A program made the translations under genes and the position numbers. The notes beneath the pieces are model-generated. The model was not told the DNA's origin. It did no database searches and saw nothing but the letters and a program-made list of their open reading frames with translations. Positions 6,597 to 35,658 of a stretch of DNA of 55,445 nucleotides are shown here, piece after piece. Origin of the DNA: an uncultured Bacilli bacterium (GTDB lineage: Bacteria > Bacillota_I > Bacilli_A > RF39 > UBA660); assembly GCA_944329195.1 (NCBI GenBank), contig CALVHX010000003.1:1-55445 (forward strand), written 5' to 3'. The stretch's first letter is position 1. Each line of letters opens with the position of its first letter.

Positions 6597-8402
6597 ATGG
6601 AAAGTATAGCTGGATTTTTATTAATAAATATATATGCTCTTTTACTTATAATAGCTACTTGTATAATATTTTTTAGTAAGCAAAGAGCTAGACAAGTAGA
6701 AGATGAGATATATAAAAATTTTCTTTTAACTAATGTGTTCATGTCTATTAGCGGATTGATTCTTGGAATATTTGTAAGTCCTGACTTTTTTAATAGATCT
6801 ATCGTTGTAATATTTAACAAGCTATACTTAATAAGTTTACTTTTATGGATATATCTTTTAACAGTATATACTGTATACATATCGTTAAAAGACAAAATAA
6901 AGAAGTATAGAAAACTGGGGAATATACTAATTGTAATAAGTGTCATACTTATTATAGTTTTGCCGATAGAAGTTAATTTAACAGAAGGCGCTTCTGCTGT
7001 TGCAACAGGTCCTAGTGTGATGATTACTTATTTAGTAGCGGGAGTAGGATTTCTGATACAAATAATATCATTATTTTTGAACTATAAAAATTTAAAAAGT
7101 AAGAAATATATACCACTTTATTTATTAATTATTTTGGGTACTTTAGTGCTCGTTATACAGATTGTAAATCCTACGCTTAATTATTTGATAAATCCTATCT
7201 TGATATTTATTGCATATATAATGTATTTTACGATAGAAAATCCTGATGCTAAGGTTCTCGAAGAAGTACATAAGGCTAAGGAAATATCAGATAATGCTAA
7301 TGAAGAGAAGGCTATATTCTTATATAACATGACTAATGAAATTAGAAGTATTACAAAAGATATAGATGACTCTGCCGATAGTATTATAAATGCAATAGGT
7401 AGTGAAAAGATAGATGTAGAGGAGATTGGTTATTCTGCGAGAGATATTAAGACAAGTACATCTAAATTTACGATGATGACTAATGAGATATTAGATATCT
7501 CTCAAGTAGATAGTACAAATATTAAAATATATAATGATAAATATAATATTAAGTTAATAATTAAAGAATTAGTTCAAAAATACAAAAGAGAATGTGAAAA
7601 TAAGAATTTAGATTTTAGAAGCAATATTGCTAGTGATGTGCCAGAGTACTTATATGGGGATAGTGTTGGATTAAAAAAGGCTTTATCTATAATATTAGAT
7701 AATAGTATAAAGTATACAAACGATGGATTTATAGAGTTTAGTGTCAATATTATAAAAAAGCGTGATGTATGCAGACTTATAATAAGTGTGGAAGACTCTG
7801 GCGTAGGAATAAAAGCAGAAGATCTGTTCAAGATATTTAGTAAGAAACAAGAGGATAGAGAAGATAATAGACATAATTTAGATAGTAACTTATACAATGC
7901 TAAAAGGTTGATAACTTTGATGAATGGTACAATAATACCGAATAGTGTATATGATAAGGGTACTACTATTAAAGTTGTCTTGGATCAGAAAATGGTCGAT
8001 ATTGATACCAGCGGACTTAATAAGTATGAAAAGGTATACGATAAGAAAAAAATATTACTAGTAGATGATAATGAATCAAGTGTAAAGATAATAAGTAAGT
8101 TATTGGATGGTACTAATATTATTTTAGATACGGTATCTTTAGGTAGTGAATGTTTAGATAAGATAAGAAACAAAGAAAAATATGATTTAATATTGCTAGA
8201 TGAAGAGATGAAGCCACTCGATGGTATTACTGTAATGAGAAAATTAAAGAGTATTAGAACATTTAATACTAATGTGATACTTCTTACCCGTAATAATAAT
8301 CACGAATATGATGAGAGTTATTTAAAATATGGATTTGTCGATTATATATTAAAACCGATAGATAAGGATAAGTTATTAGAAAAAATAAGTAAATATGTGT
8401 AG
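6597..8402 (+). CDS. Hybrid histidine-kinase-like protein with receiver domain, probable pseudokinase
   Basis: The N-terminal ~215 residues contain about seven hydrophobic helices forming a membrane sensor. A dimerisation/HATPase region (~225-460) and a C-terminal receiver domain (~485-601) follow. In the dimerisation helix the usual MSHEIR phospho-acceptor motif reads MTNEIR, so the acceptor is Asn247 instead of His. The N-box (LDNSIKYT) and G1 box (EDSGVGI) survive, but the G2 GTGLGL loop is replaced by a glycine-free stretch (HNLDSNLYNAKR). The receiver is intact: acidic pair in LVDDN, Asp535 in LLDEEM, Thr in LLTRN and Lys in LKPID. The protein probably cannot autophosphorylate and may instead scaffold or be phosphorylated by another kinase. 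The gene follows the AMP-ligase by 11 bases, with a terminator behind it. Confidence 0.8.
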   Translation: MESIAGFLLINIYALLLIIATCIIFFSKQRARQVEDEIYKNFLLTNVFMSISGLILGIFVSPDFFNRSIVVIFNKLYLISLLLWIYLLTVYTVYISLKDKIKKYRKLGNILIVISVILIIVLPIEVNLTEGASAVATGPSVMITYLVAGVGFLIQIISLFLNYKNLKSKKYIPLYLLIILGTLVLVIQIVNPTLNYLINPILIFIAYIMYFTIENPDAKVLEEVHKAKEISDNANEEKAIFLYNMTNEIRSITKDIDDSADSIINAIGSEKIDVEEIGYSARDIKTSTSKFTMMTNEILDISQVDSTNIKIYNDKYNIKLIIKELVQKYKRECENKNLDFRSNIASDVPEYLYGDSVGLKKALSIILDNSIKYTNDGFIEFSVNIIKKRDVCRLIISVEDSGVGIKAEDLFKIFSKKQEDREDNRHNLDSNLYNAKRLITLMNGTIIPNSVYDKGTTIKVVLDQKMVDIDTSGLNKYEKVYDKKKILLVDDNESSVKIISKLLDGTNIILDTVSLGSECLDKIRNKEKYDLILLDEEMKPLDGITVMRKLKSIRTFNTNVILLTRNNNHEYDESYLKYGFVDYILKPIDKDKLLEKISKYV

Positions 8403-8412
8403 AATATTTAAA

Positions 8413-8443
8413 GATCAGTCAATTAATTTTGAACTGATTTTTT
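8413..8443 (+). terminator. Rho-independent terminator after hybrid kinase gene
   Basis: The stem atcagt/actgat, extended by tcaa/ttga pairing with a bulge, is followed by six T residues. Confidence 0.65.
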
Positions 8444-8506
8444 AATATGGAATAGTATTTAAATTTATAGAAAAATATCTAGATATGTCGAAATAGTATT
8501 TTTTCC

Positions 8507-8535
8507 TTTACTTTTATATAGTTAGTTGATATACT
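8507..8535 (+). promoter_or_regulatory. Sigma-A-type promoter
   Basis: TTTACT (8507-8512) and TATACT (8530-8535) are separated by 17 bases and lie upstream of the gene starting at 8569. Confidence 0.55.
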
Positions 8536-8568
8536 TTAGATGTAATAGTAGTAATAAAGGAGAAAGTT

Positions 8569-8952
8569 ATGATAGGAGTTCATACTGTTGATATTACTAA
8601 TATAAAAAAAATACTTAAAAGTTGTCCTTATTATGATGAAATTGTTAACTATGAATTTGATTATAATGATAAGATGACAATTAATCTTATTGATTGGTAT
8701 AAGGATCTTATTTTTTCTTGTAATGGTGATGATGATAGTGATATTAAAATTATATCACAAATAGATAGATGCTTGTATTTATATATTAAAGATAATAAAT
8801 TTAAAATGGGATTGAAAAATAGAATTGATACTGAAGACGTAGAATTTAATAATGAATGGATAAGTAAATATTTAGTAGATGTTATTGTTAATTTTACAGA
8901 AGAATATGAAAATTTAAAAATCTTAGATTTTACTAGTAGCAGGTGGATATAA
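8569..8952 (+). CDS. Hypothetical protein, 127 aa
   Basis: The ATG is preceded by aaaggagaaagtt, a strong ribosome binding site, and the gene has its own promoter, so it is very likely real. The product is acidic and soluble, with no signal peptide, membrane helix or metal-binding pattern, and a mixed alpha/beta composition. I do not recognise its family. It lies between the hybrid-kinase terminator and priA; the short gap to priA contains a separate TATAAT box, so it is probably a single-gene transcript with read-through into priA possible. Confidence 0.7.
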   Translation: MIGVHTVDITNIKKILKSCPYYDEIVNYEFDYNDKMTINLIDWYKDLIFSCNGDDDSDIKIISQIDRCLYLYIKDNKFKMGLKNRIDTEDVEFNNEWISKYLVDVIVNFTEEYENLKILDFTSSRWI

Positions 8953-9010
8953 TTAAGGTATTTTAAGATCAATTTTATTTTTATGATATAATGGTTATAG
9001 GTGTTAAGTT

Positions 9011-11191
9011 ATGTATATAGATGTATTATGTGAATTAGGTGCGAAGGCTATTGATCAGACTTTTGTCTATCACGTTCCTACTTTTTTAAAAGAGAGTATT
9101 AAAATCGGAGTTAGGGTGAAAATTCCCTTTGGTAAAATGGAAATAGAAGGTTTTGTTATCAATATTAATAACGATTCTTTGTTTGATAGGGATAAAATTA
9201 AAGATATTATATCTGTTATCGATGAGGAGCCAGTTCTTAATAAAGAAATGTTAATTCTTGGAAAATATATGGCAGATAGTTTGCTTTGTTCTAAAGTATC
9301 GGCATATCAGGTTATGTTACCAAAGGCTCTAAAGGCGCAAGTTAATACGAATGTAAAATTAAAATACAATAAGTACTTGAGAAGAAATAAGAGTATTGAA
9401 GAGATCGATTTATACATTAGTAAATGTAGATATGAAACTCAGATAGAACTTTTATGTAAATTGAAAGAAAAAGATATTTTAATTAGGAAAATGAATAGTA
9501 GTATAAATACTATATTAAAACATGGTCTTGCCTCAATTGTGTATGAGGAAGAAAGTAGATATAAATATACTGGTAAATCTGACTATAAAAAGGTAAGTCT
9601 TACAAGTGAGCAAGAGAAAGTTGTATCTTGTGTTGTTAATTCTTTTGATAGATCACATACCTTTCTTCTTTATGGAGTTACAGGTTCTGGTAAAACAGAA
9701 GTATATATGAATATTATCGAAGAAGCTTTGAAACAAGAGAAGTCTGCGATTATGTTGGTTCCGGAAATTAGTTTGACTCCACAGATTGTTGGAAAATTTA
9801 TGGCAAGATTTGGTGATGTTATTTCTATATTACATTCTAAACTTTCCGATAGTGAAAGGTATGATGAATACAGAAAAATTACTCAAGGTAAATCAAAAAT
9901 TGTGATTGGAACTAGGAGTGCTATATTTGTTCCTTTTTTAAATATTGGAGTAATTATTATCGATGAAGAACATACTTCTTCTTACAAGCAAGAGAATAAT
10001 CCTAGATATAATGCTAAAGATATTGCTATGTGGAGAAGTAAATATCATGATTGTCCAGTATTATTGGGTTCCGCTACTCCTTCTATGGAGACAATGGCAA
10101 GAGCTGCTAATGGAGTGTATACTCTACTTACGCTGAATAAAAGAGTTGGAAATAGTACTCTTCCAATAGTGGAAGTTGTCGATATGAAAAAGGAAGTTAA
10201 AAAGGGGAACTTTATTTTATCAGATATATTAAAAAATAAAATAGATGATAGGTTGTCAAAAAAAGAACAGATAATTTTATTACTTAATAAACGTGGTTAT
10301 TCTTCCATTATTAGTTGCAAGGAATGTGGATATGTGGCGAAGTGTCCTAAATGTGATATAACATACACTTATCATAAGAAAAGTAATAATTTAAAATGTC
10401 ATTATTGTGGAACATCAGTACCTGTAATTTATAAATGTCCTATTTGTGGTAGTGATAATTTAAAAGATTATGGTATGGGAACAGAAAAGTTAGAAGAAGA
10501 GTTAAAGAAAATATTTGATGCAAAAATAGTTAGAATGGATGTTGATACTACGACGAAAAAAGGTGATCATCAGAAAATAATAGATGATTTTGGTGAACGT
10601 AAATATGATATATTGATTGGTACACAGATGATTGCTAAAGGGTTAGATTTTCCATTAGTTACTTTGGTAGGAGTGGTGTCAGCAGATAGTAGTTTGACTG
10701 CTTCTGATTTTCGTGCTAGTGAAAATACTTATCAATTACTTTCTCAAGTTGCAGGTAGAGCGGGTAGATCTGATAGAAAAGGTGAGGTTATTATTCAAAC
10801 GTTTAACCCTGATCATTATAGTATTAGATTGGCTGAAAGACATAACTATTTAGAATTTTATAGGGAAGAAATGAAGATGAGAAAAATGCTCAAATATTCA
10901 CCTTATTATTATATGGTTCTTTTGAGTATAACTTCTAAAGTATATGAAATTGGTTCTGTAGAGTCAAATAAGATTGCTAGTTATTTAAGAAATAATTTGG
11001 ATAAAGAGACAATTGTGTTGGGGCCTTCTATGGCAAGTGTGTTTAAAGTTAACAATATATTTCATTATCAGATAATTATTAAATATCGAAAAGACAACAA
11101 TTTGATGTCTACTCTTAAATTTATTGATGAGATGTATAAGAAGAATAATAAGATAAATGTAGAAGTTGATTTTAGCCCGATTAGGATATAA
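9011..11191 (+). CDS. priA: Primosomal replication restart helicase PriA
   Basis: A superfamily-2 DNA helicase that recognises stalled forks and reloads the replicative helicase. The N-terminal 3'-DNA-binding domain (FVYHVP...GVRVKIPFG) is followed by Walker A GVTGSGKTEV near 222-231 and the DEEH box near 318. A cysteine-rich zinc insertion with eight Cys in four CxxC pairs spans ~436-480, and motifs V and VI (GTQMIAKGLDFP, QVAGRAGR) come after it. At 726 residues it is somewhat shorter than Bacillus PriA (~805) but has every expected motif. A TATAAT box (8987-8992) lies just upstream with a weak -35. Confidence 0.95.
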   Translation: MYIDVLCELGAKAIDQTFVYHVPTFLKESIKIGVRVKIPFGKMEIEGFVININNDSLFDRDKIKDIISVIDEEPVLNKEMLILGKYMADSLLCSKVSAYQVMLPKALKAQVNTNVKLKYNKYLRRNKSIEEIDLYISKCRYETQIELLCKLKEKDILIRKMNSSINTILKHGLASIVYEEESRYKYTGKSDYKKVSLTSEQEKVVSCVVNSFDRSHTFLLYGVTGSGKTEVYMNIIEEALKQEKSAIMLVPEISLTPQIVGKFMARFGDVISILHSKLSDSERYDEYRKITQGKSKIVIGTRSAIFVPFLNIGVIIIDEEHTSSYKQENNPRYNAKDIAMWRSKYHDCPVLLGSATPSMETMARAANGVYTLLTLNKRVGNSTLPIVEVVDMKKEVKKGNFILSDILKNKIDDRLSKKEQIILLLNKRGYSSIISCKECGYVAKCPKCDITYTYHKKSNNLKCHYCGTSVPVIYKCPICGSDNLKDYGMGTEKLEEELKKIFDAKIVRMDVDTTTKKGDHQKIIDDFGERKYDILIGTQMIAKGLDFPLVTLVGVVSADSSLTASDFRASENTYQLLSQVAGRAGRSDRKGEVIIQTFNPDHYSIRLAERHNYLEFYREEMKMRKMLKYSPYYYMVLLSITSKVYEIGSVESNKIASYLRNNLDKETIVLGPSMASVFKVNNIFHYQIIIKYRKDNNLMSTLKFIDEMYKKNNKINVEVDFSPIRI

Positions 11192-24442: not shown

Positions 24443-24829
24443 ATGAATGAGGTACTTAATATTTTACTTGAATATATTATTGTATATGTACTTATTTTCA
24501 TACTTAATTATCTTTTTTTTGTAAGAAGAAAAACAAAGTATAATAAAAATAAAGTGCCAGTAGAATTTTACTATTTAGTAAATTTGTATAAGCTCGATCA
24601 AAAGAAAATTAATTATAAAAAGTTTATTTATATAACGGCTTTTATTAATACCTTTATTGTAGCTAGTACTTATATTGTTATTTATAGATTATTAGATAGC
24701 TGGATATGGCAACTTGTTTTTGGGATAATAATAATTATTTTATTGATTGTAATTTGTTATGGATTACTTGGTAGATATTACCAAAGAATTATGAACAAAG
24801 GAAAGAAGAGAGGTAAGAAGAATGTATAA
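24443..24829 (+). CDS. Small membrane protein upstream of leuS
   Basis: A 128-residue protein with three hydrophobic segments (~5-25, ~60-82, ~88-110), basic loops ([12 protein letters not shown]) and a Lys/Arg-rich end. The ATG at 24443 follows tggaggtaat; an in-frame TTG two codons upstream lacks a site. It overlaps the leuS start by eight bases, so the two are translationally coupled. I do not recognise a characterised family. Confidence 0.7.
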
Positions 24830-27638
24830 TTTTCGTAAAACAGAAAAAAAATGGCAGGAGTATTGGGAAAAGAATGATACCTTTAGAACTGATATTTACG
24901 ACTTTAGTAAACCTAAATATTATGTTTTAGATATGTTTCCTTATCCTTCCGGTGTCGGGCTTCATACTGGTCACGCCGAAGGATATACGGCAACTGATAT
25001 AATTGCTAGGATGAAAAGAATGCAAGGATATAATGTACTTCATCCAATGGGATGGGACTCTTTTGGGCTTCCAGCGGAGCAGTATGCTATTAGTACTGGT
25101 AATCATCCTAATGGTTTTACTGAGAAAAATATAGAAACGTTTAGAAAACAACTCAAGTCACTTGGCTTTTCTTATGATTGGAGTAAAGAAATATCTACTA
25201 GTGATCCTAAATATTATAAATGGACACAGTGGATATTTAAAAGACTATATAATGATGGACTTGCGAAATATATCGATATGCCAGTTAATTGGTGTGAAGA
25301 ACTTGGATGTGTACTTTCCAACGATGAAGTTATAAATGGAAGAAGTGAAAGAGGTGGATATCCTGTTATTCGTAAAAATATGAAACAATGGGTTATGGAT
25401 ATTCCAAAGTATGCTGAAGTGCTTCTTTCTGGTTTAGATAAATTAGACTGGCCAGAGTCGACAAAGGAAATTCAAAGAAACTGGATTGGAAAATCGGTTG
25501 GAGCAGAAATTACTTTTAAAGTAGCAAATACTAACAAGGAATTTATCGTGTTTACGACGAGAGCGGATACTTTGTTTGGGGCTACTTACTGCGTGCTTTC
25601 TCCCGAGCATAAATTAGTTGATGAAATTACGACAGATAGTCAAAGAGAGGCTGTAGATAAATATAAAGAAATTGCCTCTACTAAATCTGATTTAGAAAGA
25701 ACAGAGTTAAATAAAGAAAAAACGGGATGTTTTACTGGGGCATATGCAATAAATCCTGTAAATGGTAGGAAGATTCCGATTTGGATTGCAGATTATGTTT
25801 TAGCTACATATGGTACAGGTGCCATAATGGCAGTACCTGCACACGATGAGAGAGATTATGAATTTGCTTCAAAATTTGGCCTTGATATTATTCCTGTATT
25901 ACAACAAGAAACGGGAATAAGAAGGGAAAAAGAAAGCTTTAAAAATATTATAGTAGCTGTTATTTATGATCAAAATTCAGATAAATATTTAACAATAAAC
26001 TGGAAAGACAAAGATGGAAGATTATTTGTTAGCGGAACTAAAAAAGAAAATGAAACCGATTTAGAATGTGCTATAAGAGAAATACAAGAAGAAACGGGGT
26101 ATACCAATATTAATTTTGTGAGAAACACTTTTCCTATTAATCATCATTATTTTGCCTATAATAAAAATAAAGCTTACTCTATAAATGTAGTTGGTTTGCT
26201 ATTTGAATTAGTAGATGATACTAAAGTTAACACTAATTTAGATGAAGATGAAAAGGATAATTTTAAAATTGAATGGGTATGTAAAGAACAAATTTCGGAG
26301 GTAATCGATGAACTTCACAGTACTGTATTTTGTAATCTTATATATCCTAAAGCTTATACTGGAGATGGGGCTCATATAAATTCTGATTTCTTAAATGGAC
26401 TTGGCAAACAAGAGGCAATTGATAAAATGATTTCATGGCTAGAAGATAAGAAGATAGGTAGTAAGAAAGTTAATTATCGCTTAAGAGAATGGATTTTTGC
26501 TAGACAAAGATATTGGGGTGAACCTGTTCCCGTTGTCCATTTAGAAGATGGAACTATAAAATTATTGGATGATAAAGATTTACCGCTAGTGCTTCCTGTT
26601 ATGGAAGATTATAAAAGCAGGAATGGTAAAGCTCCTTTAGATAATGCCCAAGATTGGAAAAATGTCGTAATAGATGGTGTTAAAGGCGTAAGAGAAACTT
26701 CAACGATGCCTGGAGCGGCAGGGTCTTCTTGGTATTTTCTTAGATATATTGATCCACACAATGAAAATGCTATTGCAGATGAAGAATTACTTAAGCACTG
26801 GATGCCTGTCGATTTATATATTGGAGGACCTGAACATGCTGTTGGACATTTATTGTATTCAAGATTTTGGAATAATTATTTATATGATAAAGGTATATCT
26901 CCAGTTAAAGAACCATTTGAAAGATTAGTTCATCAAGGAATGATACTTGGGGAAAATGGTATTAAAATGGGTAAGAGATATCCTGAATTTGTAATTAATC
27001 CTACAGATATTGTAAATAGTCATGGAGCTGATGCACTTCGCTTATACGAAATGTTTATGGGACCATTAGAGGCAGATAAACCATGGAGTAGTTCTGGTAT
27101 TGATGCCGCTAAAAAGTTTATCGATAGAATATATAGAATTTTTGAAGATGGTAAAGTACTCGATAAAGAAAATAAAAAGCTGGAGAAAATTTATCATCAA
27201 ACAATTAAGAAAGTGACAAGTGATTATGAAACTCTTAACTTTAATACTGCTATCAGTCAGATGATGATTTTTGTAAATGCTGTCTATAAGGAAGGTTTTT
27301 TACCTAGAGAATATGCTTTTGGCATTGTTAAAGTACTTAGTCCTCTATGCCCTCATTTAGGAGAAGAACTTTGGGAAATGTTAGGTAATAATAATACTAT
27401 TGCTTATGAAAAGTGGCCTACCTTTGATGAGAATAAAATAGTAGAAGAAGAAGTGTCTATTGCTGTCCAAGTTAATGGTAAACTAAGAGATACTATTAAG
27501 GTATTACAAGATGCTGATAAAAGTGTACTAGAAAATGAAGCACTTAATAGTGAAATAGTTAAGAAGTGGGTCGATGGTAAAGAAATAGTAAAAATTATTA
27601 CTGTACCTAATAGAATTGTAAATATTGTCGTAAAATAG
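24822..27638 (+). CDS. leuS: Leucyl-tRNA synthetase with an inserted Nudix domain
   Basis: A class I synthetase charging tRNA-Leu. The HIGH-type motif is HTGH, the KMSKS-type motif reads KMGKR, and the CP1 editing domain retains [10 protein letters not shown] and the [11 protein letters not shown] segment whose Asp is needed for hydrolysis of mischarged tRNA. Between FGLDIIPVL (~356) and [10 protein letters not shown] (~511), where most bacterial LeuRS have a linker of only tens of residues, sit about 150 extra residues. They contain a full Nudix box: Gly405, Glu411, Arg419-Glu420, Glu423-Glu424, Gly426-Tyr427. The total is 938 residues against ~805 usual in Bacilli. The reading frame is continuous through the insertion, so this is a domain fusion and not an assembly break. 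Confidence 0.95.
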
Positions 27639-27660
27639 GCACTCAAGTGAGTGCTTTATA
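27637..27660 (+). terminator. Weak terminator after leuS
   Basis: A perfect 7-bp stem gcactca/tgagtgc with a 2-base loop is followed by only tttatatg, so termination may be incomplete. Confidence 0.45.
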
Positions 27661-27670
27661 TGTTATTTAG

Positions 27671-27727
27671 ATACTATATAGTATTTTGGAAAATACGAAA
27701 AAAATCACAAATTTTTTATGGTGATTT
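27671..27727 (+). promoter_or_regulatory. Cluster of palindromes upstream of the WYL regulator gene
   Basis: Three inverted repeats lie in 57 bases: atactatatagtat (27671-27684), gtatttt-gg-aaaatac (27681-27696) and aaatcac...gtgattt (27702-27727). They are candidate operators for the regulator encoded at 27755. No clear -35/-10 pair is visible apart from sequences inside the palindromes. Confidence 0.5.
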
Positions 27728-27754
27728 ATATTCAAAAGCAATAGGTGGGATGAT

Positions 27755-28348
27755 ATGAGTAAAATTTCAAATGCTATTCAAATGGTAAATTATTTAAATA
27801 CAGGTAATAAATATACTGTGAAGGAACTCGCAGCAAAATTGGGTGTCACTGAACGCATGATTAGATATTATAAGGCAGAATTAGAGCAAGCTGGAATTCC
27901 CATAGATACTTTCATGGGACCAAATGGTGGATATTACATATTAAATATAAAAAATCAATATAATCACTTTAATAAATATGATTTGCAGTTATTAGAAAAT
28001 GTTTACAGAATTTTGGAAGAGAATGGTTATGAAGATATTGATAAGTACTGGAAAATAATTGATAAGATTAGAGTTGCTAGTGATATTGAGGAAGAAAAAA
28101 GTAAATATTTTCTAGATAATTCAACTGGTAATAATTCGGAATTATATTTTATATTAAAAAAAACGATTGTAAATAGATCATCAATAAGAATCTTATATAG
28201 AAATTTGAAGCAAGAATGGCAAGAAAGGATTATCCATCCTTTACAGATATTTAATTATGAAAATAAGTTTTATGTAACGGCTTTTTGTGAATTAAGAAGT
28301 GATATTAGACATTTTGAATTTGATAGAATTAGATTGAACGATAAATAA
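27755..28348 (+). CDS. HTH-WYL transcription regulator
   Basis: A 197-residue protein with an HTH_11 winged helix (~5-62; TVKELAAKLGVTERMIRYYKAEL) and a linker with the GGYYIL turn. A WYL core follows (~130-197; IRILYRNLKQEWQERIIHPLQIFNYENKFYVTAFCE...HFEFDRI). WYL regulators sense ligands, often nucleotides or nucleic acids, and commonly control DNA-repair or defence loci. It is shorter than most family members (~300), stopping after the WYL core without the C-terminal WCX extension. It stands directly upstream of the six-gene metabolic operon and is its most likely regulator. The ribosome binding site is aggtggga. Confidence 0.85.
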   Translation: MSKISNAIQMVNYLNTGNKYTVKELAAKLGVTERMIRYYKAELEQAGIPIDTFMGPNGGYYILNIKNQYNHFNKYDLQLLENVYRILEENGYEDIDKYWKIIDKIRVASDIEEEKSKYFLDNSTGNNSELYFILKKTIVNRSSIRILYRNLKQEWQERIIHPLQIFNYENKFYVTAFCELRSDIRHFEFDRIRLNDK

Positions 28349-28374
28349 TTTAGACGAAATATTTCCTACATGTG

Positions 28375-28383
28375 TGCTATAAT
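28375..28383 (+). promoter_or_regulatory. Extended -10 promoter of the HAD-PRTase operon
   Basis: TGCTATAAT (TG at 28375-28376, TATAAT at 28378-28383) forms an extended -10 with no strong -35, 26 bases before the TTG start. Confidence 0.6.
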
Positions 28384-28408
28384 ATAGTTACAGGTGGAGG
28401 TGGTTAAA

Positions 28409-28885
28409 TTGAATAAAAAAATATTTATTGATTTTGATGGCGTGATTTTTGATACAGAAAAAAGGGTAGTTGATAGAAAAAAACAAAATCCAAAAATGAG
28501 TTGGAATGAATTTTTCGAAAATTTAGATTGGTTTCAATTGTTAGAAGAATCAATGGTTATAAATAATGCAATTGATTATATATTAGAAGGACAATCGAAA
28601 TCCAAACAGATTGCTATTTTAACAAAAATTCATACTTTGGTTGAAATGCAAGCCAAAGTAAAAGCATTAAGAAGTAGAGGGATAGAGGTTCCAATATTGT
28701 TTGTTCCTCCTCATGTTAAAAAGAGTCAGGTTTATTTACCCAATAATGAAGAAATTTTGATCGACGATAGTCTTAAAAATCTTGTCGATTGGAAGCAGAA
28801 TGGTGGAACTAGTATCTATTTTAATGAGGAATTAGTTTGTATACCTCAATTTAAAACAATAAAGTCTTTAAACAAGGTATTATAA
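28409..28885 (+). CDS. HAD-superfamily phosphatase, 5'-nucleotidase-like
   Basis: A compact 158-residue HAD protein. Motif I is DFDGV (~7-11) with both nucleophile aspartates, motif II Thr lies in ILTKI, motif III Lys in KKSQV, and motif IV is LIDDS. The set is complete, so it should be an active phosphatase. The length and DFDGV start resemble the 5'(3')-deoxynucleotidase (NT5C) group, so a nucleotide monophosphate is the likeliest substrate (inference). The TTG at 28409 follows aggtggaggtgg; the in-frame GTG codons at 28394 and 28400 lie in that site. It is the first gene of the operon, nine bases before the next. Confidence 0.75.
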   Translation: MNKKIFIDFDGVIFDTEKRVVDRKKQNPKMSWNEFFENLDWFQLLEESMVINNAIDYILEGQSKSKQIAILTKIHTLVEMQAKVKALRSRGIEVPILFVPPHVKKSQVYLPNNEEILIDDSLKNLVDWKQNGGTSIYFNEELVCIPQFKTIKSLNKVL

Positions 28886-28894
28886 GGTGGTTTT

Positions 28895-30418
28895 ATGATA
28901 AGCGAGGAATTGATAAAAAATTATGAAAGAGCTCTAATGCAAAAATATAATGCCGTTTGTTTTGACATTGATGGTACTCTTACCGAAGATAATTCAACAA
29001 GGATAGATGTTCGAATATTACCTATTCTAGCGAATATATTAAAGCGACACATTCCGGTAGTATTTATAACTGGTAGGGGAGAGACTGGACTGAATGATTT
29101 ATCAAGAGAAATAGTTTATGATTTAAAAAATAAACATGGTGTTACAGATAAACAATTGTTAAAAATGTACGCCCTTACTAATGATGGTGCTAGGATATTT
29201 ATGACTAGTAATGGTAGTAGTAAACTTTTTAATGTTAGTGAATATATTTCAGAAAGAGAAGACTTGCTTAAACTAAATGAGTTAAATATCAAGATTGTTA
29301 ATTTGTTGAGGTCAACTGTATTAGGTGATTACTGTAAAGTTACTTATTCTAAAGATTCTGATAGTGATTTAATAGTTAACATTCGATTGTTAGTTTTAGA
29401 TGAAAGTATTGAAGTCAAAAATACAATAATAAAAGAAATTGAATCTTTAATAAATGATACTAAAAGCTGGAATATTAATTTAACTATTGGAATACATAAT
29501 GGGAAGCAAATTCTACAAGTAGGCACAACAACAAAGGATAAGGCAATGCAAGTGGTTGAAAGAATGATTGGTATTCCACAAAATTCGATGTTAAGGATAG
29601 GAGATTGTGGAGATAAAAATGGTAATGACTATTCGATGTTGAATTGTCCCCAAGGATTTAGTGTGAATAAAGTAAGTGGTAAGAATGATAGTTGCTTTCC
29701 AGTTATTGATAATGGAAAAATAATAAGGGGAGTAAATGCTACATTATTTTTAATGAAAAAAGTTAAATTATTACCAACGATTTGTTTAGAACACGCGATA
29801 CAGGAAGATTATAAAAAAGCATATGCTAAAGTGGAAAAGAAAATGAATCAAGGTAAAAACAAAAATATTTATTATTTTGATGGTTTAATAAATGAAAAGT
29901 TTCAGACAGTTTATGGCATTAATAGTTTGTTCGATTCATCCAGTGGAAGTATCAAAATTCCCATGTATGAGTGGGTTAATATATCAGATGATAACCAGCT
30001 TAAACGGTTGTGGTTAACATATGATGGTGCAAGTTTATGTTATTCCATGTATGATAATGAAAATATTTTACTAAGAGGTTCAAGAATATATTACTACTTT
30101 TTGTCACAAAGATTTCATGATGAAAAGAAAAAAGAAGATATAACAACTAAAGAGATGATATATGGTTGGTTGAATAATAATGGAGAGTTTTTGCTTCAAT
30201 CCTTGAATGCTTTTAGTAATGTTAATGTAGATGAATTAAACAACATAAAAATGATATTGGGAATAATTGATAATGTTAGAAATTATCTGCTGATTTTATT
30301 AAACCAATTAATTGTTGGAAATGATACGGAAAAAAATATTATGTTAAATTTGACTTGTTTAAATAAAAATACACTGATTTATAAAATATACAATAATTTG
30401 GTAAGTGCGAAAAATTGA
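28895..30418 (+). CDS. HAD-IIB/Cof-type phosphatase with helical C-terminal domain
   Basis: A 507-residue protein. The first ~280 residues form a HAD phosphatase of the C2-cap, Cof/sucrose-phosphatase type: motif I CFDIDGTLTED near 22-32, motif II FITGRGE near 57-63, motif IV RIGDCGDKNGNDY near 233-245. The remaining ~225 residues are mostly alpha-helical, rich in Tyr, Asn and Lys, and unlike any domain I recognise. HAD-IIB enzymes dephosphorylate sugar phosphates. The stop codon overlaps the start of the phosphoribosyltransferase gene (TGATG), so the two are made together. HAD plus PRTase pairs also occur in the tellurite-resistance-associated biosynthetic modules; no ter gene is seen here. 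Confidence 0.75.
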   Translation: MISEELIKNYERALMQKYNAVCFDIDGTLTEDNSTRIDVRILPILANILKRHIPVVFITGRGETGLNDLSREIVYDLKNKHGVTDKQLLKMYALTNDGARIFMTSNGSSKLFNVSEYISEREDLLKLNELNIKIVNLLRSTVLGDYCKVTYSKDSDSDLIVNIRLLVLDESIEVKNTIIKEIESLINDTKSWNINLTIGIHNGKQILQVGTTTKDKAMQVVERMIGIPQNSMLRIGDCGDKNGNDYSMLNCPQGFSVNKVSGKNDSCFPVIDNGKIIRGVNATLFLMKKVKLLPTICLEHAIQEDYKKAYAKVEKKMNQGKNKNIYYFDGLINEKFQTVYGINSLFDSSSGSIKIPMYEWVNISDDNQLKRLWLTYDGASLCYSMYDNENILLRGSRIYYYFLSQRFHDEKKKEDITTKEMIYGWLNNNGEFLLQSLNAFSNVNVDELNNIKMILGIIDNVRNYLLILLNQLIVGNDTEKNIMLNLTCLNKNTLIYKIYNNLVSAKN

Positions 30419-31224
30419 TGATAAATATTTCCTTTAATAAAAGTTATAAAATCAATAATAACGATATTATTCAACTGATAAAAAATGTAATTACGATTAC
30501 CGATATATTTAGGATAGATTTTGCTAAACAACCTATTAAAGCAAATTATTCTAAAGAATTTAGGGTGTATAGGGAGATAGATAATTTTGCTGAAAATTTT
30601 ATCACCTCTTGTTTAACGATGCAAAAGGATTTAAGAATTTATAAAAAGGGTATTTGTGGTGTGTGTTATGGCGGCTTGGAACTACCAATTATAATGAAAT
30701 CAATGGATAATAGGATAGATGATGTATCTGTGTTAAAGTTTAACAAAAATGTAACTGGTTATTCCAAAAAGCAATCATTGGAGTTGAGATTTTTTGATGT
30801 ATTTAATGCTGGTGGTATTGAACTTTTTGGTGTCGATAAGCAAAAATCTTATGTTTTATTAGATGATAATTTATTAACAGGAAAAACTATGCAGCTTGCA
30901 TTGACTACTTTATATGACATAGGAATTGATGTAGATAAAATTATTGTTGTTAGATATCCGGGTGTTAATAGAATTAGTCAAATGTTTATGCCAAATCATG
31001 GGGCTATTGACTATAGACATTTTTTTGAATTTATTGAGGGTTTATATTTTCCTAGTCCATATAGTTGGAGAGACCCATATAGTTCTGATCCATATGAGGA
31101 TTCTCTTGGGATATTTGATTTGAATAGAAGAAAAGTGCTAGAGTGTTTAGTAAAAAACGGTGACTACTCTAAAAATAGTGAAGTGTCATTTGTAAAGAGG
31201 TTGATTAGGAATGAAAATAATTAA
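30418..31224 (+). CDS. Phosphoribosyltransferase-like protein
   Basis: A 268-residue protein whose key feature is the PRPP-binding signature YVLLDDNLLTGKTMQ near 141-155, with the two acidic residues and TGKT loop of type I phosphoribosyltransferases. Upstream GICGVCYGGLELP near 78-90 fits the first substrate-binding loop. It could add or remove a ribose-5-phosphate on a base or similar acceptor, but the acceptor cannot be told. The C-terminal ~70 residues are Tyr/Pro/Ser-rich (FPSPYSWRDPYSSDPYEDS), an unusual tail. It overlaps the preceding HAD gene and is 99 bases from the DHH gene; that gap holds no clear terminator. Confidence 0.7.
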   Translation: MINISFNKSYKINNNDIIQLIKNVITITDIFRIDFAKQPIKANYSKEFRVYREIDNFAENFITSCLTMQKDLRIYKKGICGVCYGGLELPIIMKSMDNRIDDVSVLKFNKNVTGYSKKQSLELRFFDVFNAGGIELFGVDKQKSYVLLDDNLLTGKTMQLALTTLYDIGIDVDKIIVVRYPGVNRISQMFMPNHGAIDYRHFFEFIEGLYFPSPYSWRDPYSSDPYEDSLGIFDLNRRKVLECLVKNGDYSKNSEVSFVKRLIRNENN

Positions 31225-31323
31225 TGTTGCTAGCTTGTTGTTTAAGGTGTATATGTATATGTTATATTATTTAAAATTTAGTTTGTGTGAAAAATACAAA
31301 AATGAAATATAAGGAGAGGTTGA

Positions 31324-32277
31324 TTGATTTTAATAATGAATGAGATTGTAGATGTATTAAAAAAAATTAATAATAATATTTATATTAGTGGTCATAAAAA
31401 GGCTGATTGTGACTCTTTATTCTCTTCTTTAGCTCTGGCTCTTTTACTTAACGATATGGGAAAGACTTGCAAGGTTTATATTGAAAAAGAAGATATAGAG
31501 AAGGTAGAATATTTTCAATGTAACGATATCATAGTGGATGACATTGTTGATGATAATTTTACTTTTATATTATTGGACTTAAATAAGATAGAAAGGCTTC
31601 CAGATAAAATGATATATGCCTTTCAAAAAGCTACTACAACAATCAATATAGACCATCACATAAAAAATAATACCAAATCAAAATTTGTTTATAGCTTTGA
31701 AGAAAAAAGTTCAACGTGTGAGATAATTTATGACATAGCTAGTGAATTACAAGTAAAGATTAGTAGTAAAATTGCTGAATTGTTATTCACTGGTATAGTT
31801 AGCGATACAAATATGTTAGTGAATAATGCTGATTATAATACTTTTTTAATATTATCACATTTATTAAAGAAAAACATAGATAAAGATTTTCTAATAAATA
31901 AGTATGTTATTGAAAAAACAGAAGAAGAAATGAAAATTATAGCATATATGATAAATAATATTATTTTTGATGAGGTTTATTATGTTGTATTGGATATGAA
32001 GAGGGAACCTTTTAGAAGTGTTTCATATGTTGATATTTCAAAAAAATGTATACCAACTATTATGAGTGATGAAAATATAAATATATTGATTGTAATAATG
32101 GATTATGGAATTAAAAAGAAAGGAGAAATACGGAGTAAAGGAAAAATTGATTCTGAAAAGTTAGCTAATATTTTAACTGGTGGTGGCCATTTTCATGCTG
32201 CTGGTTTCTCTAATAAAAAAAGTATAGATGAGATAATAGATATTTCGAAAAAATATATGGGTGATATTAGTGTATGA
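31324..32277 (+). CDS. DHH-family phosphoesterase, NrnA-like
   Basis: A 317-residue DHH/DHHA1 protein. Metal-binding motifs appear as GHKKADCDS near 19-27, LLDLN near 81, IDHH near 110-113 and SDTN near 159-162. The DHHA1 domain ends in the GGGHFHAAG motif near 293-301, which binds the phosphate end of the substrate. This is the layout of NrnA, which degrades nano-RNA and pAp, and of cyclic-dinucleotide phosphodiesterases without membrane domains. The canonical DHH centre is intact, so activity is expected. The TTG at 31324 sits five bases after aaggagagg; an ATG at 31336 is a weaker alternative. It overlaps the following kinase gene by 17 bases. Confidence 0.85.
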   Translation: MILIMNEIVDVLKKINNNIYISGHKKADCDSLFSSLALALLLNDMGKTCKVYIEKEDIEKVEYFQCNDIIVDDIVDDNFTFILLDLNKIERLPDKMIYAFQKATTTINIDHHIKNNTKSKFVYSFEEKSSTCEIIYDIASELQVKISSKIAELLFTGIVSDTNMLVNNADYNTFLILSHLLKKNIDKDFLINKYVIEKTEEEMKIIAYMINNIIFDEVYYVVLDMKREPFRSVSYVDISKKCIPTIMSDENINILIVIMDYGIKKKGEIRSKGKIDSEKLANILTGGGHFHAAGFSNKKSIDEIIDISKKYMGDISV

Positions 32278-33301
32278 TATTTTAAAATATTATTATGATA
32301 TAGATGCAAATAACATAGAGCCTTTATCTGGCGGTTGGATGAATGGAAAGTATATAGTTACTTCAAATAAAAATAAATACGTTTTAAAAGTATATAATCA
32401 TAAAAAAATTGAAAAAATGAGTAATGGTGAATTTTCTACTAATTATTTAGATAATCAAATGTTAAATAATTTGAGAATAGTAAACTATATGAACGAATTA
32501 AAATTAAATTGCCCAAAAGTTATACCGACAATTTTTAGCGATTTAATTGTAAAGTATGGCAATGATAGGTTGACTTTAATGACTTATATAAATGGAAAGA
32601 ATGTAGATAGAAAAAGTATAACTGGAATTCAATTATGTAATTTGGGTAATGAATGTTGCAAGATGCATAATTTATTTAAAAATGTTAGCGATGAGTTATA
32701 TGTAGGTAAATATTTAGCGCTTCCTACTTTAAATGACTTAGAAAATAGACTTATTTATAACACGTCAATTGTTTCTGCTGAAACTTCTAAAGAATTTATA
32801 GAGTTATTAAAGTTTGAAAAAAGAATTATAAGAAAATTATGTGATACTAATATAATTGATGAAATACCAATTGGTATTATACATGGTGATTTTGCAGATG
32901 ATAATATAATATTTAGTAATGACGCTCCGTATATTGTTGATTTTGAATTGGTAAGAAAAAATTCTTATTTACAAGATATAGGTAGAATTCTTTTATCGTA
33001 TTGTTTTGATGATGGTGTAATTAATTTTGGAAGAATTAATAATTTCAAAGCTGGGTATGATAATTTGAACTATAGTCAAATATTGTTATCATTAGTTATT
33101 GTTTGGATTAATGAAATTAATATGTGGATAAAAAGTAATTATTTTAGTAGAAATTTGACTTTAAAAGCAAAAAGATTTCAAGACGAATTAATATATTTGA
33201 CTATAAATCTTGAAAGTATTATTGATTTGTATTTTTATTGTGACAATGAGGAAATAATAGGAAAATATAAATCTTGCGAAAAGAAATTAGTTAGAAGATA
33301 G
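32261..33301 (+). CDS. Aminoglycoside-phosphotransferase-fold (APH) small-molecule kinase
   Basis: A 346-residue protein of the APH/choline-kinase fold. The ATP-binding start is SGGWMNGKYIVTS with the lysine in YVLKVYN, the catalytic loop is IIHGDFADDNIIF near 206-218, and the metal-binding IVDFE follows near 224-228. The family phosphorylates hydroxyl groups on small molecules such as homoserine, choline, methylthioribose or aminoglycosides. Given its neighbours, a sugar or nucleoside-like substrate is more likely than an antibiotic (inference). The GTG at 32261 overlaps the DHH gene; a GTG at 32270 is another possible start. Confidence 0.75.
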   Translation: MILVYDILKYYYDIDANNIEPLSGGWMNGKYIVTSNKNKYVLKVYNHKKIEKMSNGEFSTNYLDNQMLNNLRIVNYMNELKLNCPKVIPTIFSDLIVKYGNDRLTLMTYINGKNVDRKSITGIQLCNLGNECCKMHNLFKNVSDELYVGKYLALPTLNDLENRLIYNTSIVSAETSKEFIELLKFEKRIIRKLCDTNIIDEIPIGIIHGDFADDNIIFSNDAPYIVDFELVRKNSYLQDIGRILLSYCFDDGVINFGRINNFKAGYDNLNYSQILLSLVIVWINEINMWIKSNYFSRNLTLKAKRFQDELIYLTINLESIIDLYFYCDNEEIIGKYKSCEKKLVRR

Positions 33302-33320
33302 TTTAAGGGAGATTAATGAT

Positions 33321-35285
33321 ATGAAAATAATTAGTATAGGTGACTTAGTTACGGATTTCTATTATAAGAATGGTAAATTAATTGGTATCAATGGTGGTAT
33401 GACTGCGCATAATATAATTGCAAATATTAGTAAAATGGGCTTTGAATCTGCTACTTATGGTGTATGTGGAAATGATGCCGCTGGAAAGATAGCAATAGAT
33501 AGTTTGAAAAATATTGGTGTCAATATTGATAACATAAAAATAATAGATGGTTTAGAAACGCGCTGCTTTCACGTGTCATATTTTGAGGAAAATGGTAAAT
33601 TAGATTTTACTTCAAAAAAGAGATGCCCTTTTTGCGGTGAGAAACACTGGTATAATGATAGTAATATAAATTGCGATGATATTTTGAAAAATATAGATGA
33701 AGATGATATTTTAGTATTTGATAATTTAAATAGTAGAAACCAAATTATTATTGATAACTCTCGTAATAGAAAAATGTTAGATTTGGGTCAGTATTTTGAA
33801 CTAGACGATTATAGTGATAATGAGATTATTGATAAAATTAAAGGTAAGTTTGATTTTATAAACTTAAATGAACGTGTTGAAAAATATTTAATGAAAAGAT
33901 TTTCTATAAATTTATTAGAAGATGTATATAGTATATTGAAACCTAAATTAGTAATTGTTACTAGGGGTAGAAAAGGATCTGATTTTGTATTTAATGGTTA
34001 TAAAGTGAATAAAGAATTAGCAAATCCTTCTTTGGAACTTGATCCTACGGGAGCGGGCGATGCGTTTTTTTCTGTGTTTATTGGTGAGTATGTAAAAAAT
34101 AATTATGTTCTAGATGAAAAATTTATAGATTTTACTTTTGATAAGGCTACTAAACTTACGAAGAAAGTGGTAAAAAAGTTTAGTGCTAGGGGACATATAC
34201 AAAATTTATATAAGATAAAAAAGTTAGATAATAGTTGTACTTGTAGAAATTTTGATATTTTATTAAGAAAACAAATTAAAAGGTGTAATATAAATGTAAA
34301 TAACTTGGAAACTAGAATTATAAATGCTATTAAGAGCGGTGCTTATGAAAAATTAGTAAATATTAATTTTAAAGATTTAAATAATAGTATTTTTATTGGC
34401 ACAGGGGGTTCTTATGCTAGTGCTAAGTTTTCTTCTAAAGTTATTAATTATTTGTATGGTTTAAATACAATTGCTTTATTTCCAAGAGATTTGTATTATA
34501 GAAATAATAGTCGTGTAGATTCTATATTTATGTTTACTTATTCTGGCACGACAGATGATTTATTAATTTCAACTAAATCAATTGATAATAAAATTAAGTA
34601 TATTATTTCCAAAGGTGAGCTACAAAAAATCATAGCTAAAACAGGAATAACTAAAAATAACATTATTTCGTATAGGACAAGTACTAATAGAGGTAAGGAG
34701 AGAGGCTTCTTGTCTTTTGAAGGAGTTTTGGCTCCCGCTAGTTTATTTTTGAAACTATATTTTGAAAAAAACTTGAGAGATGATGTTGATTACTTTATTA
34801 GAGATAGTATAAACTATTGGAAGAATTATTTTGATAAGTATTTTAAGGATAATAAGAAAATGTTAAAAGATTTTCTAAAAATGGGAGGATTGCTAAATAT
34901 TTTTATAGGAGATTTTACGGAAGCGGCTGGTAGTGATTTAGAAAGTAAAATAGTGGAGTCTGGTATTTATAATTGCTTAATTCATGAAAAGAAAAATTTT
35001 TCTCATGGAAGATTTATTAATTATGAACATTTAAGTCAAAAAAAGAACATTTATCTTAAACAAAAAAGTACAAGCTTATATGAAGAAAAATTATTAGATT
35101 ATTTATCAAAAGATAAAAATCTAATAATTGAAAGTAGATATGATGGTATATTATGTGAATTTGATTTGTTAGTTGCTTCTCAATATTTGGTATATTATAT
35201 ATCGAATTTTCTTGATATAGATATTTCAAAGCCAAAGTATAGTGAAGATGCTATGAAAATATATTTTTACAAGGGAGAATTATAG
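33321..35285 (+). CDS. PfkB-family sugar kinase fused to a SIS domain
   Basis: A 654-residue two-domain enzyme. Residues ~1-290 are a ribokinase/PfkB kinase, with the N-terminal GINGGMTAHNIIANISKMG region and the C-terminal signature DPTGAGDAF near 240-248 carrying the catalytic Asp. A CPFCGEKHW element near 94-102 inserts two cysteines into the kinase lid, and CTC occurs near the domain junction (~306). Residues ~335-640 contain a SIS sugar-phosphate-binding domain (FIGTGGSYASAKF near 357-369, FTYSGTTDD near 405-413). Kinase plus SIS suggests sequential phosphorylation and isomerisation or deamination of one sugar. It is the last gene of the operon, 19 bases after the APH-type kinase and followed by a terminator. 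Confidence 0.8.
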   Translation: MKIISIGDLVTDFYYKNGKLIGINGGMTAHNIIANISKMGFESATYGVCGNDAAGKIAIDSLKNIGVNIDNIKIIDGLETRCFHVSYFEENGKLDFTSKKRCPFCGEKHWYNDSNINCDDILKNIDEDDILVFDNLNSRNQIIIDNSRNRKMLDLGQYFELDDYSDNEIIDKIKGKFDFINLNERVEKYLMKRFSINLLEDVYSILKPKLVIVTRGRKGSDFVFNGYKVNKELANPSLELDPTGAGDAFFSVFIGEYVKNNYVLDEKFIDFTFDKATKLTKKVVKKFSARGHIQNLYKIKKLDNSCTCRNFDILLRKQIKRCNINVNNLETRIINAIKSGAYEKLVNINFKDLNNSIFIGTGGSYASAKFSSKVINYLYGLNTIALFPRDLYYRNNSRVDSIFMFTYSGTTDDLLISTKSIDNKIKYIISKGELQKIIAKTGITKNNIISYRTSTNRGKERGFLSFEGVLAPASLFLKLYFEKNLRDDVDYFIRDSINYWKNYFDKYFKDNKKMLKDFLKMGGLLNIFIGDFTEAAGSDLESKIVESGIYNCLIHEKKNFSHGRFINYEHLSQKKNIYLKQKSTSLYEEKLLDYLSKDKNLIIESRYDGILCEFDLLVASQYLVYYISNFLDIDISKPKYSEDAMKIYFYKGEL

Positions 35286-35340
35286 AAAGATATGCTAGTT
35301 TTATTTTTAACTTCTAGTAGTGAAAACTTAAATTATTTAA

Positions 35341-35392
35341 TTAATTAGACTTATTTCATTAAAAATAAAACGGAAATAAGTCTTTTAATTAA
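35341..35392 (+). terminator. Terminator of the HAD-PRTase-PfkB operon
   Basis: An 11-bp perfect stem agacttatttc/gaaataagtct, extended by ttaatt/aattaa, ends with a short T-run. Confidence 0.75.
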
Positions 35393-35421
35393 TTATCATA
35401 TGTTAAAGATACGGCGAAATT

Positions 35422-35588
35422 AGTTACTATTCACAGCCTTTTGCCCTTTAATTTATAGTACTTTAAATTTAAAATTTGGATAAAAATAGGCTGTGAATAC
35501 TTGCTATTACACATATTTATAAACTCAAAAAAACAATAAAGTCCTTAAAATAAAGAAATTAATTGTCGAATTTAGCTGTGAATAGTAA
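35422..35588. repeat. Inverted-repeat element upstream of tRNA-Gln, MITE-like
   Basis: The 15-mer gttactattcacagc (35422-35436) recurs as its exact reverse complement at 35574-35588. A third partial copy (ggctgtgaata) at ~35489-35499 pairs with tattcacagcc at ~35427-35437. No open frame lies between the arms. The ~167-base unit with inverted ends looks like a small non-autonomous element or a folded intergenic repeat beside a tRNA gene. Confidence 0.5.
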
Positions 35589-35658
35589 CCGAAATTAAAA
35601 AAAGATGAAATTTTACTCTTGAATATACAAGCTCTTAATGTTATAATTATATTGTCAT

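Follow-up and report, generated by a model that had tools for sequence, protein, structure and literature searches.

A PfkB-type kinase that acts together with an SIS-domain enzyme is known from the fructoselysine pair FrlD/FrlB. Regulators with a WYL domain frequently control defence genes, and in BrxR/BREX-like loci a helix-turn-helix (HTH) WYL regulator lies beside an accessory operon (PMC9122589, PMC9122601); WYL domains are described as nucleotide-sensing modules that control DNA-damage and phage-defence genes (PMC10693628). Here we describe a locus that combines a WYL regulator with a fused PfkB and predicted SIS protein. It lies on contig CALVHX010000003.1 (GenBank assembly GCA_944329195.1) of an uncultured Bacilli bacterium, of which a stretch of 55,445 nucleotides (nt), called the window in the following, was analysed. 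The genes at 27755-35285 are a conserved unit with the order WYL regulator, small HAD-family phosphatase (HAD1), HAD-IIB phosphatase fused to a predicted phosphoribosyltransferase (HAD2:PRTase), a slot with exchangeable genes, and PfkB kinase fused to the SIS-like domain (PfkB:SIS).

With FrlD/FrlB the cassette shares the combination of a PfkB kinase and an SIS-domain enzyme, but here both are parts of a single fused protein with invariant CPxC and CxC motifs, a PRTase and HAD proteins are encoded alongside and a transporter is absent. As in BrxR/BREX-like WYL-regulated loci, an HTH WYL regulator stands beside an accessory operon, but BREX, CBASS and restriction genes are missing, no enrichment of defence genes was seen in the flanks and the proposed control element is a promoter-positioned motif 3' of the regulator gene. 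HAD2 has its best Foldseek match in ISN1 (PMC7320144; TM ~0.5 on the target), but the identity is ~13%, the two have no common sequence family and HAD2 is fused to a PRTase. Finally, the two slot proteins of the window are clear members of the broad families of NrnA/DHH-DHHA1 phosphoesterases and APH kinases, but the DHH protein scores far below the NrnA cut-off and DHH and APH are paired inside the cassette in the loci found. No model covering the gene set of the cassette is present in PADLOC, Pfam or NCBIfam, and open-access papers (subscription papers and preprints were outside the scope) yielded no matching set for WYL + SIS, PRTase + HAD + PfkB or SIS + Ham1. This agrees with the first-pass annotation of the stretch, which knew of no named system with exactly this set. 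What is new is how far the genes present and their arrangement stand from any described system; the claim does not extend to the chemistry.

Core genes, distribution and genomic setting

When a single genome of each species was scanned, 53 related loci were obtained, all in Bacilli/Tenericutes by assembly name (uncultured Bacilli, Candidatus Onthousia, Caccenecus, Faecisoma, Coprosoma and Scybalousia). The contigs of 49 of them reach both HAD2:PRTase and PfkB:SIS and are therefore informative. In all 49, far more than expected by chance, these genes were adjacent or parted by slot genes only, and WYL and HAD1 lay upstream of HAD2:PRTase in nearly all related loci. Conserved co-occurrence in other genomes, which the first-pass annotation had proposed to look for, is thus found, and it is clearly not the case that no genome keeps three or more of the genes together. 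Co-inheritance of the genes at the level of the cassette is nearly certain.

The cassette is mobile and found at differing chromosomal sites. With the PRTase as query it was detected in 12 of the 193 genomes of the order, and no match was obtained in either of the two same-genus genomes searched. In the same-genus genome G150 the order leuS, tRNA-Gln, gluRS is present without a cassette and leuS and gluRS are 523 nt apart; in the window this distance is 8.4 kb. In four genomes (L074, L060, L064+L075 and L077) dacA is split and the cassette sits between its two halves, next to a large serine recombinase. In these insertions the recombinase has ~560 amino acids (aa) and is accompanied by an open reading frame (ORF) of 64-70 aa; integration into dacA is recurrent, with a cargo that varies from genome to genome. 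No clear common repeat longer than chance was found as att core at the dacA junctions. An origin from plasmids, phages or viruses was considered as well, but no relatives were found among the plasmids, phages and viral contigs searched, and neither PRTase nor SIS gave a tblastn match or a pattern-confirmed one.

Apart from the dacA/integrase cases the flanks are diverse. Among 376 flanking ORFs no uptake-like family recurred and the operon itself encodes no transporter, so that the search for a neighbouring sugar uptake system, also suggested at first pass, came out negative. A coarse PADLOC test of 120 flanking against 120 control proteins gave 36 vs 21 families, mostly as single-protein matches, and no defence family recurred in the flanking proteins relative to the control. 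Between the terminator and tRNA-Gln of the window a perfect 15-nt inverted repeat, GTTACTATTCACAGC / GCTGTGAATAGTAAC (35423-35437 and 35575-35589), encloses 137 nt; it did not turn up at the unoccupied site of G150 and is possibly the remnant of a mobile element. The neighbouring leuS gene (24822-27638) carries an insertion of ~146 aa in the editing region (25905-26342) with the Nudix-like sequence REIQEETGY; this insertion is missing from the leucyl-tRNA synthetase of two same-genus genomes (818 aa).

Features of the cassette in the window. Coordinates refer to the window; the evidence is given in the last column.
Feature	Coordinates	Strand	Evidence and remarks
Inserted stretch with whole cassette, between leuS and tRNA-Gln	27640..35640	no strand	boundaries approximate; empty site in G150
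WYL regulator, HTH_11 + WYL, 197 aa	27755..28348	+	Pfam PF13280 8.5e-14, PF08279 5.8e-7
Control element AGACGAAATATTTCC, consensus AGACNNAATATTTC[C/A], proposed WYL binding site	28352..28366	+	post-WYL conservation
Extended -10 promoter element TGCTATAAT, 8 nt 3' of control element	28375..28383	+	spacing identical in 40/50 loci
HAD1, small HAD-family phosphatase	28394..28885	+	likely start TTG 28409; motifs; NCBIfam HAD-IA
HAD2, HAD-IIB phosphatase with ~230-aa extra region	28895..30418	+	N-terminal part of HAD2:PRTase fusion; NCBIfam, Foldseek
A5 run at end of HAD2 frame and opening of PRTase frame	30410..30414	+	TGA 30416-30418, ATG 30418
PRTase part, motif DDNLLTGKT, loop YGGIELP	30415..31224	+	phosphoribosyl pyrophosphate motif; Pfam Pribosyltran below cut-off
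Slot gene 1, DHH/DHHA1 phosphoesterase, NrnA-like	31324..32277	+	Pfam DHH 8e-21
Slot gene 2, APH-fold kinase	32261..33301	+	Pfam APH 7e-17; HGDFADDN, IVDFE intact
PfkB sugar/nucleoside kinase domain of PfkB:SIS	33321..34220	+	Pfam PfkB 5e-13; CPxC + CxC
SIS phosphosugar isomerase/deglycase-like domain of PfkB:SIS	34284..35285	+	PDB profile matches 2aml, GlmS
Operon terminator hairpin	35347..35383	+	11-nt perfect inverted repeat (11 pairs), then T-rich

The seven ORFs of the first-pass annotation are all present at the place and on the strand given there, and so are the gap of 99 bases (31225-31323) and the hairpin at the operon end. Its domain calls were borne out for WYL, HAD-IIB, DHH/DHHA1, APH and PfkB, but HAD1 and PRTase scored below the curated cut-offs and SIS had no Pfam match. 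The key motifs, described as intact, are indeed invariant or nearly so among relatives in the active sites of HAD1, PRTase and SIS. HAD2 and PRTase had been read as separate genes; two ORFs are present in the window, but the relatives encode one protein of ~775 aa that is read straight through, and two genes are ruled out for the family.

Control element and fused enzymes

The WYL match is the only one in the genome. Directly 3' of the WYL stop codon 44 of the 45 large-type loci carry a conserved switch, AGACNNAATATTTC(C/A)-N8-TGNTATAAT, consisting of the control element and the -10 box; in the exception, L065, the element is found upstream of WYL. Three loci with a different gene order, L047, L053 and L076, likewise have it upstream of WYL. 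When windows of 105 nt following WYL were examined in the 45 large-type and 5 minimal loci, the element was present with at most two mismatches in 46 of 50, compared with 0.23% of random windows; the copy in the window is exact. A -35 hexamer is not evident at the switch and its position is occupied by the control motif, which we propose as the putative WYL binding site. The first-pass annotation had placed palindromes before the operon next to the regulator: WYL remains the likely local regulator, but the palindromes upstream of it are not conserved and are ruled out as operator, the conserved element being downstream. A genome scan gave 98 element matches with at most two mismatches vs 62 for a reversed control pattern; the sole other exact copy (C28) lies apparently in a coding stretch and has no -10 box. 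Since no further convincing copy was found in the genome, the regulation looks local and a wider regulon was rejected.

Relatives show little or no variation in the HAD motifs DxDGT/V, T, K and D; in HAD1, which matched NCBIfam HAD-IA with 5e-4 (below cut-off), DxDGV, T, K and DD are invariant among 10 relatives. HAD2 matched NCBIfam HAD-IIB with 8.5e-12. The match of the PRTase part to Pfam Pribosyltran was 0.0037 (17.0 bits, cut-off 26.3), and its motif DDNLLTGKT (acidic pair + TGKT) is nearly invariant over 39 relatives. An AlphaFold model of the HAD2:PRTase of L025 (pLDDT 86, pTM 0.84) was compared by Foldseek, in which the HAD part came nearest to the IMP-specific 5'-nucleotidases ISN1 (E ~1e-8). 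In the window the HAD2 and PRTase frames are offset by -1 at the A5 run, with a TGA/ATG overlap at 30416-30420. Other frame breaks in HAD2:PRTase, at places different from that in the window, occur in L067 (near 2150) and L068 (near 9040), and the reading frames are also broken in L028 and L073; PfkB:SIS showed zero frame breaks among 52 copies.

In PfkB:SIS, whose ORF spans 33321-35285, the GAGD motif of PfkB and four cysteines are invariant in 42 sequences. The cysteines belong to the motifs CPxC and CxC (33624-33635 and 34236-34244; residues 102, 105, 306 and 308) and are possibly a candidate metal site, which would be unusual in a PfkB kinase. The kinase part of the AlphaFold model (pLDDT 88) was assigned by Foldseek to the ribokinase/nucleoside kinase family. 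The second domain had no match in Pfam; it is assigned as SIS from profile matches to 2aml (1.3e-6) and GlmS (6.6e-4) and from the motifs GTGGS, YSGTT and E...HG. Among the Foldseek matches listed, a single domain of each model prevailed, so the SIS and PRTase folds were not confirmed by this route.

Exchangeable slot and smaller relatives

The slot between PRTase and PfkB:SIS is empty in 39 of the 49 loci. It contains a CAT-family acetyltransferase plus an alpha/beta-hydrolase in four, the hydrolase alone in three and, besides the window, DHH plus APH in three (L057, L062 and L075). The acetyltransferase of L035 matched PF00302 with 2.5e-29 and the catalytic HxxxDG is present as NHAFQDG in all four slot copies. 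On the PfkB:SIS tree the slot state requires at least nine changes, near the mean of 10.7 for shuffled states; therefore, the slot content turns over. The slot APH had no other match in the 193 genomes of the order, and close relatives of the slot hydrolase were present in only two of these genomes, both cassette-bearing, so the slot genes are probably dedicated to the cassette. Each pair would combine a group-adding with a possible group-removing enzyme. The window protein with DHH (see table) and also DHHA1 missed the NCBIfam NrnA equivalog cut-off (86 vs 350 bits) and is a DHH/DHHA1 protein that is not assignable as NrnA; the DHH homologue of L062 matches NrnA structures. One pathway for one metabolite had been suggested for all six enzymes, of which the single co-inherited unit stands, but a fixed six-enzyme pathway is unsupported because DHH and APH are replaced or absent in most relatives.

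With the SIS profile, standalone SIS homologues were found beside WYL in 7 further genomes related to the cassette hosts. The order WYL, SIS, HAM1 (XTP/dITP pyrophosphatase type, PF01725 6e-23) was present in L126 (operon at 7209-9454), L127, L144, L145 and L148. In L146 (7068-9884) genes for an HD phosphohydrolase and a GNAT acetyltransferase come after WYL and SIS, and in L147 WYL and SIS stand alone. Several of these small relatives bear a weaker form of the switch, L147 and L148 with recognisable forms of the control element. What stays constant is thus WYL and SIS, often accompanied by the control element, and the enzymes encoded around them tend towards nucleotides. Since WYL, SIS and in part the control element are common to the WYL-SIS-HAM1 form, the function is approachable from this three-gene version, whose operons are perhaps the easiest form of the cassette to study.

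Proposed function and alternative explanations

We propose that the locus is a mobile accessory cassette with a switch of its own, under which a single purine-nucleotide/phosphosugar metabolite is processed, a reading to which we give an even chance. The WYL protein would sense a nucleotide-like signal and bind AGACNNAATATTTCC, which would stand in for a -35 box. The PRTase would couple phosphoribosyl pyrophosphate (PRPP) with an acceptor resembling a base, and HAD2, to which it is fused and which is like an IMP nucleotidase, would take off the 5'-phosphate. PfkB would phosphorylate the sugar part, the fused SIS domain would isomerise or deglycate the phosphosugar and HAD1 would remove a remaining phosphate. 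Slot enzymes may add and remove a group, either acetyl (CAT-type enzyme and esterase) or phosphate (APH and DHH), and the net outcome would be that the metabolite is made, repaired or destroyed. The chemistry of these steps is tentative and, as stated here, probably not right. The common theme of phosphate and ribose-like groups, already seen at first pass, is borne out by the HAD2 fold, which is closest to IMP 5'-nucleotidases, and by the HAM1 pyrophosphatase in sister loci.

A number of observations weigh against this proposal. HAD1 and PRTase are assigned by motifs, with scores below the curated cut-offs, and for the HAD2:PRTase model the best-ranking Foldseek matches span the HAD part only. 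The split of HAD2:PRTase in the window may be decay, fission with translational coupling or an assembly error. Binding of WYL to the control element is suggested by the conservation and position of the latter, and of the 5 minimal loci examined 2 carry the element with at most two mismatches, while 3 have no match. Furthermore, the minimal systems are devoid of PRTase, kinase and both HADs, which makes the order of steps a conjecture.

A role in stress or anti-phage defence, as raised by the first-pass annotation, would have the WYL sensor turn on enzymes that alter or deplete the nucleotide or PRPP pool upon infection. WYL regulators are frequent at defence genes (PMC9122601, PMC9122589) or at DNA-damage genes (PMC10693628); the cassette is mobile, patchy and integrase-borne, and HAM1 or HD phosphohydrolase genes occur in or beside sister loci. 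But no enzyme of the cassette has a PADLOC match below E 1e-3, leaving generic WYL models as the only hits, an effector is not recognisable, no PADLOC family recurs in the flanks over control regions in the coarse test and the cassette was not found in the phages, plasmids and viral contigs searched. We consider defence possible, if unlikely. Alternatively, the cassette could synthesise a nucleoside-like metabolite and use its slot enzymes as a self-protection and deprotection pair, which would explain why the fusions pair would-be successive forward steps (PRTase with phosphatase, kinase with isomerase) and why slot pairs join a group-adder and a group-remover (CAT + esterase, APH + DHH); this reading is rather doubtful given that no recurrent exporter or scaffold-building enzyme is nearby, that the slot is empty in most loci and that the minimal relatives hold a pyrophosphatase instead.

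A damaged purine nucleotide, either glycated or non-canonical, might instead be repaired or salvaged, a reading open to similar doubt, in which the kinase and an SIS deglycase would work alongside HAM1 and a nucleotidase in house-cleaning. The E...HG motif of SIS resembles the GlmS/deglycase class, HAM1 is found in sister loci, the HAD2 fold is ISN1-like and PfkB matched the fructoselysine 6-kinase model with 1e-10, albeit with 41.6 against a cut-off of 247. Other sugar kinases, however, matched PfkB equally well, and the mobility and patchiness would be unexplained for a house-cleaning system. An ordinary catabolic operon for sugars or nucleosides under a WYL regulator is quite improbable: kinase, isomerase and phosphatases are typical catabolic components, but there is neither a transporter in the operon nor an uptake-like family recurring in the flanks, the PRTase and the exchangeable slot fit poorly, and the possibility that the set is an already described catabolic operon found no counterpart in the open-access papers searched.

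Returning to the mobile cassette that processes one metabolite, its wider role could be one of cell protection: in response to a signal of the nucleotide type, WYL-SIS cassettes would produce or eliminate an unusual nucleoside or phosphosugar metabolite that shields the cell from phage or competitors, and the exchangeable slot would supply a protecting and deprotecting pair; this extension is speculative and rather unlikely in its full form. In sum, the cassette is a conserved, mobile and self-regulated system in uncultured gut-type Bacilli with small genomes, in which accessory genes should come at a cost, and its promoter element, fused enzymes and exchangeable slot make its function open to direct tests.

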